Shown: positions 280 through 8,187 of the stretch, in pieces
How positions within the stretch are numbered: the stretch's first letter is position 1
Layout: each line of letters starts with the position of its first letter
Assembly: GCF_001692325.1 (NCBI RefSeq)
Contig: NZ_LXKN01000001.1
Span: 620,001 to 684,000 of the forward strand
Origin: Rhizobium sp. AC27/96
GTDB taxonomy: Bacteria > Pseudomonadota > Alphaproteobacteria > Rhizobiales > Rhizobiaceae
Reading direction: 5' to 3'
Length of the DNA: 64,000 nt
Notes under the pieces: generated by a model
Seen by the model: the letters and a program-made list of their open reading frames with translations, nothing else
What the model was told of the DNA's origin: nothing
Database searches by the model: none
Program-made: the position numbers and the translations under genes

Positions 280-382
280 GGTGATCTCCCCTTCATTCCT
301 GCATAGCCTCGGCTTGTCCGCGCGTCCATTGGCAAGCCAAAAAGTCAGGCAATGAAATTTATTGATGTATCTATTGACTCTC

Positions 383-397
383 GAACAAAAATAGAAC
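383..397 (+). promoter_or_regulatory. LexA box (SOS operator) upstream of the 28-aa peptide
   Basis: The sequence GAAC-AAAAATA-GAAC is a perfect match to the alphaproteobacterial LexA operator, GAAC-N7-GAAC (read GTTC-N7-GTTC on the other strand). A TTGACT hexamer usable as a -35 element lies at 374-379, four bases before it, so LexA bound here would cover the promoter spacer. I find no convincing -10 hexamer. The operator ends 33 bases before the ATG at 431. The spacer sequence is almost the same as that of the dinB operator at 8173-8187. Confidence 0.8.
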
Positions 398-430
398 AAA
401 AAAGAAACATAACGAGTAAGGAGCGCGTAA

Positions 431-517
431 ATGACCGATATCATTCGAGACGTTGCAGCATTCACCTCCATCGTGATGTTTGTCGCCAGCTTTTCCCTCA
501 TCATGATGGCGATGTGA
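431..517 (+). CDS. 28-aa SOS-controlled membrane peptide (SidA-like in design)
   Basis: ATG at 431 and TGA at 515-517 encode 28 residues: a short polar N-terminus (MTDIIRD) and one hydrophobic segment covering about residues 8-28. This is a single-pass inner-membrane peptide. A good Shine-Dalgarno (AAGGAG, 418-423) sits 7 bases before the ATG, and a rho-independent-like hairpin follows at 539-565, so it has its own transcription unit. The LexA box at 383-397 predicts induction by DNA damage. Known biology: Caulobacter SidA is a 29-residue SOS-induced inner-membrane peptide that blocks division through FtsW. Here the resemblance is in size, topology and control only, and sequence homology is not shown. 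It is too short for most gene callers. Confidence 0.7.
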   Translation: MTDIIRDVAAFTSIVMFVASFSLIMMAM

Positions 518-538: not shown

Positions 539-565
539 GTTGCTCCCCGATTTGATGGGAGCAAC
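539..565 (+). terminator. Hairpin terminator after the 28-aa peptide gene
   Basis: Perfect 9-bp inverted repeat GTTGCTCCC / GGGAGCAAC with a 9-base loop, followed by TTCTGG. The U-tract is poor, but the hairpin sits between the peptide gene and dnaE and would separate the two. Confidence 0.5.
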
Positions 566-633
566 TTCTGGACTTTGTCGTCCGCAATGCCGAAGATATC
601 GCTGATTCATTTGGGCATGCGGAAGGGTACAAA

Positions 634-4131
<3,498 letters not shown>

Positions 4132-6875: not shown

Positions 6876-8165
6876 TTATTTATCGCGTTTTCCGCCGAAT
6901 GTGTAACCGGTCTCGACGGTCTTGTTGCCGAATTTTTCTCGGAGCTTGTCCATGGCCGCCTCGGCTGCGGCGCGGCGTGTAGCCTGCTCGTCGATCAAAT
7001 CGGGTGGATCGGCGCGTCCGGCATCGCCAAGATCGGTGACGCCGATGCCGATGAGACGGAACTTCGTACCGTCCGTTTCCGGCTCGAGCAGGCGCAAGCC
7101 GGTGCGAAAGATTCGGTCAGCGAGCTGCGTCGGGTCTTCGAGGCGGCGGTTGCGCGTCCGGCTCTTGAAATCTGATGTTTTCAGCTTCAGCACGACGGTC
7201 TGGCCGGCGATACCGCTGCGCTTCAGACGGCGCGAAACCTTCTCCGACAGATCGCGCAGGATCGGCACGAGATCATCGTAGCGGGAGATGTCTTCGAAGA
7301 AGGTGGTTTCGGCCGACACGCTTTTCGCGGCTTCATTCGGATGCACCGTGCGGTCGTCGATGCCGCGCGACAGGCGGGAAAGCCGCTGGCCGATGACACC
7401 GTAGCGGCGCATGAGGTCGCTTTCATCCATGCCCTGCAATTGGCCGATGGTGCGAATGCCGTCGCTTTCCAGCGTCGCCGCGAAGGCCTTGCCGACGCCC
7501 CAGATGGTTGTCACCGGGCGGGGCTCCAGAAACGAAACGGCCTCCTCACGGCCGATGACGGAGAAGCCGCGGGGCTTCTGCAGATCAGAGGCGACCTTGG
7601 CGAGGAACTTGCAGTAGGAGAGGCCGATGGAGATGGTGATGCCGATCTCCTGCTCCACGCGCCGCGCGAATTTCGCCAGGATACGGGCCGGCGGATCATG
7701 ATGAAGCCGCTGCGTGCCGTCGAGTTCCAGAAAAGCCTCGTCGATCGAAAGCGGCTGCACCAAGGGCGTCAGATCCTGCATCATGGTGCGGATCTCCCGG
7801 CCGACTCGCACGTATTTCTCCATGTTCGGACGGATCACCACCGCCTGCGGACACGCCTCCAGGGCCTTGAACATCGGCATGGCGGAGCGAACGCCGTGAA
7901 TGCGGGCGATATAGCAGGCGGTGGAGACGACGCCGCGCTTGCCGCCGCCGACAATCAGCGGCTTGTCGGCCAATTCCGGATTGTCCCGTTTTTCGATCGA
8001 GGCATAGAAGGCGTCGCAATCGATATGGGCCAGCGTCAGCCCATAGAGCTCGCGGTGATAGACGAGGCGAGGGCTGCCGCAGGCCCGGCAACGCGTACGC
8101 ACGGCGGATTGCTCGCTCAAGCAATCGCGACAGAAACCGGAAATCTTGTCGAGCGTACTGGTCAT
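6876..8165 (-). CDS. dinB: DNA polymerase IV with N-terminal zinc-finger extension
   Basis: 429 aa from ATG at 8165. This start is chosen because the LexA box (8173-8187) and the probable transcription start lie just upstream; in-frame starts further up would fall within or before the operator. The N-terminus has C12-x2-C15 and C26-x2-C29, a likely zinc ribbon absent from E. coli DinB. Then come the Y-family palm ([14 protein letters not shown]), the second catalytic motif [10 protein letters not shown], helix-hairpin-helix ([13 protein letters not shown]) and a little finger. Pol IV does error-prone bypass of lesions. An obvious beta-clamp peptide is not seen at the very C-terminus. It is transcribed divergently from the GNAT gene at 8247. 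Confidence 0.95.
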
Positions 8166-8172
8166 CGAATGA

Positions 8173-8187
8173 GAACAAAAATTGAAC
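8173..8187 (-). promoter_or_regulatory. LexA box (SOS operator) of dinB
   Basis: GAAC-AAAAATT-GAAC on the plus strand, a perfect GTTC-N7-GTTC operator read toward dinB. It starts at about the predicted transcription start and ends 7 bases before the dinB ATG, so bound LexA would block initiation. It differs from the operator at 383-397 at one spacer base. Confidence 0.88.

Follow-up and report, generated by a model that had tools for sequence, protein, structure and literature searches.

Near the left end of the window, which is the whole stretch of 64,000 nucleotides of Rhizobium sp. AC27/96 DNA that was analysed (contig NZ_LXKN01000001.1, positions 620,001 to 684,000), a frame of only 28 codons is placed on the plus strand between a predicted promoter region and dnaE. 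An earlier note, made from the letters alone, had proposed here an SOS-controlled membrane peptide similar in design to SidA of Caulobacter. The features of the locus are the following:

374..379, plus strand: TTGACT, a -35-like hexamer directly 5′ of the LexA box, predicted promoter element
383..397, plus strand: LexA operator sequence GAACAAAAATAGAAC, a perfect GAAC-N7-GAAC read from the letters
405..408, plus strand: AAAC, possible degenerate third half-site, 11 bp past the second half-site
418..423, plus strand: AAGGAG, ribosome-binding site, read from the letters, with similar pre-start sequences in relatives
431..517, plus strand: 28 codons and TGA, for a predicted membrane peptide with a single helix, likely ortholog of SidA
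539..565, plus strand: hairpin of 9 bp, GTTGCTCCC/GGGAGCAAC, identified by folding, possible transcript end or stabiliser, without a T run
566..599, plus strand: block resembling the genus-conserved TTCTGGAC...ATGCCGA upstream of dnaE, compared by eye over 30 genus loci, possible dnaE promoter
634..4131, plus strand: dnaE, DNA polymerase III alpha subunit, its first 600 residues containing PHP and DNA_pol3_alpha domains

The operator described in the earlier note was confirmed where it had been placed, 33 bases ahead of the frame (box 383-397, ATG at 431), the strong ribosome site corresponds to the AAGGAG at 418-423, and dnaE, named as the neighbouring gene, starts at 634 on the same strand, 116 nt after the end of the peptide frame. 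The TTGAC motif was kept at the position that it has in the window in 30 of 30 genus loci, and a generic promoter scan of the window returned no entry at the TTGACT of 374..379. At the position of the AAAC, other loci of the family carry a perfect second box overlapping the first one, and two boxes between -60 and -30 were observed in 20 of the 135 loci.

The window contains four perfect GAAC-N7-GAAC sequences, compared with 1.58 expected, and the 7.3 Mb genome contains 178, compared with 188 for the reversed pattern. Since there is no excess over the reversed pattern, the box by itself belongs to the background, and its use as stand-alone evidence was rejected. What is beyond chance is the conserved pairing of the box with the peptide. 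In 120 of 134 family loci (a set in which three genomes are present twice: L031/L061, L059/L062 and L052/L063), a perfect box was located no more than 60 nt upstream of the start; among 5,677 control windows of equal length (60 nt) from these loci, 29 had one. The box start mostly fell between -47 and -49 among the 135 family loci.

Other perfect boxes were observed in the surrounding DNA. A dinB-like DNA polymerase IV gene (PF00817; window 7266-8187, minus strand, ATG at 8165), used as a yardstick for the box, carries GAACAAAAATTGAAC at 8173-8187, immediately before its ATG. About 340 bases before the window start, a gene for a DUF5680 protein (PF18931; L017:980-1515, minus strand) presents GAACAAATAGTGAAC some 57 nt upstream of its start and, going by these sequences, is possibly a second LexA-linked gene, with no function assigned. 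In plus-strand loci of the window's clade, a perfect box is also found at about -970 from dnaE.

The single hydrophobic helix proposed for the peptide was borne out as a prediction, with a Kyte-Doolittle maximum of 2.24 over a 17-residue span, compared with 2.26 for the L417 peptide of a Caulobacteraceae-like genome. Neither Pfam nor NCBIfam returned a match to the window peptide at E values up to 10, and two protein-database searches returned matches that were nameless or annotated as 'hypothetical protein', the best one for the frame of a same-genus relative being from Rhizobium sp. BK196.

Downstream of the stop codon, the claim that the gene has its own terminator hairpin was sustained in part. 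The hairpin is present, at 539-565 and beyond the piece ending at 517 with which the earlier note dealt, and the segment 537-583 folds with an energy of -19.2 kcal/mol (z -4.2); the terminator was not recovered, since no T run follows the hairpin and a pattern scan of the window had no entry for a strict terminator at the 3′ side of the frame. Stable folds after the stop (z < -1.5) were found in 51 of 130 loci, compared with 17 of 130 control stretches, and this feature is thus not universal.

To follow the locus among relatives, dnaE was searched in 61 genomes; for the peptide, 297 family genomes were searched, and the single 28-residue query matched 147 of them at E <= 1. A total of 140 loci were examined and 135 were scored as homologs, 134 of them having exactly 28 codons from ATG to stop and comprising 100 distinct peptides, while L170, with 30 aa and no box, was counted in the 135 and left out of the 134. 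All 135 chosen starts were ATG, and an additional in-frame start exists further upstream in 36 of the 134; the start was picked for the best fit to the window peptide, so that the constant length of 28 residues is partly a product of construction. The five loci that fell below the score cut (L123, L127, L134, L144 and L162) are homologs as well, being either N-terminally extended, at about 33 residues, or about 25-27 residues long.

The check among relatives that the earlier note had proposed showed the frame and its box to be kept upstream of dnaE. In 127 of the 135 loci dnaE follows the peptide on the same strand, at a distance of 79-650 nt. The peptide does not always precede dnaE in cis, the exceptions being found in g97, g51, g92, g96 and g109. 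Peptide and box occur without dnaE in the stretch examined in seven g97 loci, both g51 loci, one g92 locus, one g96 locus and one of two g109 loci (L174-L178, L181, L182; L389-L392; L394), and in the other g109 locus dnaE is placed 1,730 nt from the peptide. By our reading, a frame resembling an ABC-transporter ATPase still lies upstream of the peptide in L394 and L174.

A profile (A1) was built from 60 of the 134 28-mers, sharing fewer than 24 identities with one another, and presented D7, A9, S13 and F17 in at least 90% of its rows. It matched 242 of 294 family genomes and 93 of 109 genera (E <= 0.01), a count that measures spread and is no independent test, since the A1 rows were drawn from the same family. 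Moreover, selection on the frame was found to be purifying and not neutral, with a pooled dN/dS of 0.113 over 25 distinct sequences in the genus, where the differences at codon positions 1, 2 and 3 numbered 647, 226 and 2933, and with a pN/pS of 0.095 over 10 distinct sequences in the window's clade. Judged from these sequences, 431-517 holds a conserved gene that is subject to purifying selection and is preceded by a perfect LexA-operator sequence.

Outside the family, an order-level search with A1 matched 76 of 297 genomes at E <= 0.1, 12 of them belonging to the family itself, and many of the matches beyond it were weak, with several placed immediately upstream of dnaE. Box, peptide and dnaE follow one another in L396-L399, large-genome members of family f35. 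The profile by itself was too weak across the class, where 13 of 385 genomes were matched, and synteny was therefore used instead. The 89 dnaE loci gathered outside the family comprised 20 of 23 order-level places (G039 and G043, small genomes, and G052, a split match, were left out), 40 class-level places picked on genome size and 29 more. A perfect box within 700 nt upstream was observed in 29 of the 89, and the succession of box, hydrophobic frame of 20-50 residues and dnaE in 22 of these, a few of which may be chance frames (e.g. L259); the hydropathy cut missed a true case, G680. The corresponding control, with 11 permuted motifs, gave 0 of 89 for each.

A contig search with a piece of DnaE from family f56 found 533 relatives, from which 80 named loci were kept, and the same layout was present in 24 of them (L308-L331), one being the query's own record. 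These 24 were mostly untyped alphaproteobacterial MAGs, with one titled Rhizomicrobium sp., and we read f56 and the related layout loci as a Rhizomicrobium-like group, to which the search had led and not to Caulobacter. The remaining 56 loci, mostly Rhodobacteraceae by title, had no perfect box within 700 nt upstream of dnaE. One MAG titled Rhizobium sp. Q54 (L327) carries a DnaE and a peptide of the Rhizomicrobium-like type, and its label is probably wrong.

Of 102 genomes tested for the holdfast protein HfaB (NF037935), eight exceeded the cut-off, and the highest score was that of G680 from family f115; in G680, two boxes and then a 29-residue frame lie upstream of dnaE. Five of the other seven genomes have the layout (families f172, f61 and f56), and the two from f131 have neither box nor frame in front of dnaE. 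HfaB alone was rejected as a marker of Caulobacterales, because the Rhizomicrobium-like f56 is positive too, and HfaD (NF037936) was added for that reason; its cut-off was passed by 8 of 11 f115 genomes and by none of 10 from other families, and Caulobacter vibrioides was the only one of 14 control genomes to pass. Family f115, with both HfaB and HfaD, is accordingly classed as Caulobacteraceae-like on these marker proteins.

With the G680 peptide as query, 105 of 119 f115 genomes gave a match at E <= 1, mostly weak and many within long frames. Among the 30 f115 loci returned, box, 29-residue frame and dnaE followed one another in 18 (a longer in-frame start is also present in 11 of these), and 12 had no perfect box within 600 nt upstream. 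The alignment A2, made from 16 of the 18 peptides after two duplicates were left out, is invariant at M1, S13, F17, V18, W19 and M20 and nearly so at R3, R6 and L9. Comparison of A1 with A2 by hhalign gave a probability of 87% and E 3.7e-6, with columns 1-19 placed on columns 1-19 and no gap. The in-register score of the two alignments peaked at offset 0 and was reached in 3 of 20,000 permutations of columns and, when segments were preserved, in 13 of 20,000; with offsets from -3 to 3 included, 20 of 5,000 permutations reached it. The window peptide and L417 are identical at 7 of 28 positions, counted by eye; the rhizobial peptide has two aspartates at its N terminus and is without the invariant W19-M20 of A2. 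This low identity counts against the SidA reading, as do the 12 f115 loci without a perfect box, the lack of box and frame in f131, the few genomes of the class recovered by the profile and the influence of start choice on the lengths. It is considered highly probable that the frame is a real gene, conserved and provided with a LexA box, and that it shares ancestry with the Caulobacteraceae-type peptide.

We take the older number of C. crescentus sidA to be CC1927, adjoining dnaE at CC1926. The dnaE gene is given as CC1926 in one source (PMC1839093), and sidA is listed as CCNA_02004 in another (PMC10769358). Together, the dnaE number and the assumed one would place sidA upstream of dnaE in C. 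crescentus. SidA itself is described as an SOS-induced protein of 29 aa that interacts with FtsW (PMC4211646), and we infer that the f115 29-mers are SidA. The conservation of frame and box over the family, the purifying selection and the ungapped match to the f115 29-mers argue for common descent with SidA, beyond a shared design. The earlier note had called the peptide SidA-like in design; that reading is supported by the profile match to 29-mers at the same place in Caulobacteraceae-like genomes, and may be raised to the statement that the window peptide is likely a SidA ortholog at the same locus.

If so, LexA would repress the peptide gene through the operator and, because the box follows the TTGAC hexamer, would directly block RNA polymerase; it would leave the operator once RecA is activated by DNA damage. 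The peptide would then insert in the inner membrane and hold the FtsW/FtsI/FtsN complex inactive, as SidA does, so that septation would be held back while the DNA is damaged. The contacts of SidA with FtsW and FtsN were reported from two-hybrid assays, and its suppressors were reported in ftsW and ftsI (PMC4211646); in a 2026 model of low confidence, SidA is placed against FtsW at helix 7 (PMC13396833). We infer LexA binding, induction by damage, contact with FtsW and division arrest for the rhizobial peptide, and the full reading, a division checkpoint in which a LexA-controlled rhizobial SidA ortholog in the inner membrane would arrest septation via FtsW, appears quite probable.

Other explanations were weighed against this checkpoint. 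An SOS-regulated membrane peptide of the TisB/DinQ type, perturbing the membrane and leading to dormancy with no block of the divisome, would equally be short, very hydrophobic and preceded by a LexA-box promoter, and we consider it unlikely. TisB has a long regulated leader, and an antisense RNA holds the toxin in check; the rhizobial frame, unlike it, has a short leader and a good ribosome site, and its constant place before dnaE in 127 of 135 loci, the purifying selection and the ungapped match to the Caulobacteraceae-like peptide also speak against a toxin of this kind. DinQ is described as a toxic single-helix peptide of the inner membrane, SOS-regulated and controlled by an antisense RNA (PMC3567139). 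The constant place before dnaE could instead be attributed to a leader peptide or uORF that controls dnaE through translation or through the transcript, the peptide itself being unimportant, and short ORFs in 5′ UTRs of Sinorhizobium meliloti, including sORF25 of dnaE1, have been suggested as uORFs (PMC10117765). Such a role is improbable: amino acids are conserved across the entire frame, and the leader reading is weakened by those loci of g97, g51, g92, g96 and g109 that have kept peptide and box although the stretch examined contains no dnaE. Moreover, dnaE is probably transcribed from its own promoter, and the peptide is thus probably not a mere dnaE leader.

A SidA-homologous membrane peptide under SOS control might also act on something else, such as the machinery of polar growth in the Rhizobiales, which are described as growing from one pole (PMC7327166). 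This unipolar growth, the low identity and the loss of the Trp-Met pair of A2 would fit such a change. The shared locus and layout, for which intermediates were found in further families of the Hyphomicrobiales and in the Rhizomicrobium-like group, speak against it, and a different target is held to be quite unlikely. The checkpoint reading can be extended to the class: SidA would be an ancestral alphaproteobacterial checkpoint, encoded by a fast-diverging peptide gene between a LexA operator and dnaE, traceable from Caulobacterales through the Rhizomicrobium-like group to rhizobia, absent before the dnaE of Rhodobacteraceae, and refitted to the FtsW of the polar-growing Rhizobiales. This wider scenario is moderately probable.

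In the published record, a Ribo-seq study of S. meliloti reports a translated sORF25 in the 5′ UTR of dnaE1, with no function assigned (PMC10117765). From its place, sORF25 is likely the same gene as the rhizobial peptide, and its translation gives indirect support for translation of the latter; LexA, SOS and SidA are absent from the main text of that study. The earlier note knew of no such peptide described in Rhizobium, and this agrees with the openly licensed papers searched, in whose titles and opening abstracts no rhizobial SidA is described and in whose listings and some passages no SOS division inhibitor for rhizobia was found. The rhizobial peptide thus represents a concrete candidate for such an inhibitor, placed before dnaE and without a Pfam or NCBIfam model, and the range of the SidA-type peptide would be far wider than found described. 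If the reading is true, SidA would no longer be the peptide of one genus but a class-wide checkpoint, its contact with FtsW could be traced by co-variation over many genera, and the finding would bear on how division is held during damage in polar-growing bacteria.

Compared with known systems, the rhizobial peptide is closest in plan to SidA of C. crescentus, with 28 versus 29 residues, one predicted membrane helix and a LexA box in front, and it shares with the Caulobacteraceae-like 29-mers the place upstream of dnaE and the ungapped match over residues 1-19. It differs from the SidA-type 29-mers in its identity of about a quarter, its more acidic N terminus and the missing Trp-Met pair, and the rhizobial loci differ from SidA in the two overlapping boxes present in 20 of 135. 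TisB and DinQ of Escherichia coli are likewise short, hydrophobic and SOS-controlled, but are toxins under antisense RNA control. By description, the peptide can also be likened to other small membrane proteins that block a late step of division after DNA damage, namely YneA of Bacillus subtilis, SosA of Staphylococcus aureus, ChiZ of Mycobacterium tuberculosis and DidA of C. crescentus, the last being described as an SOS-independent protein of 71 aa that binds FtsN.
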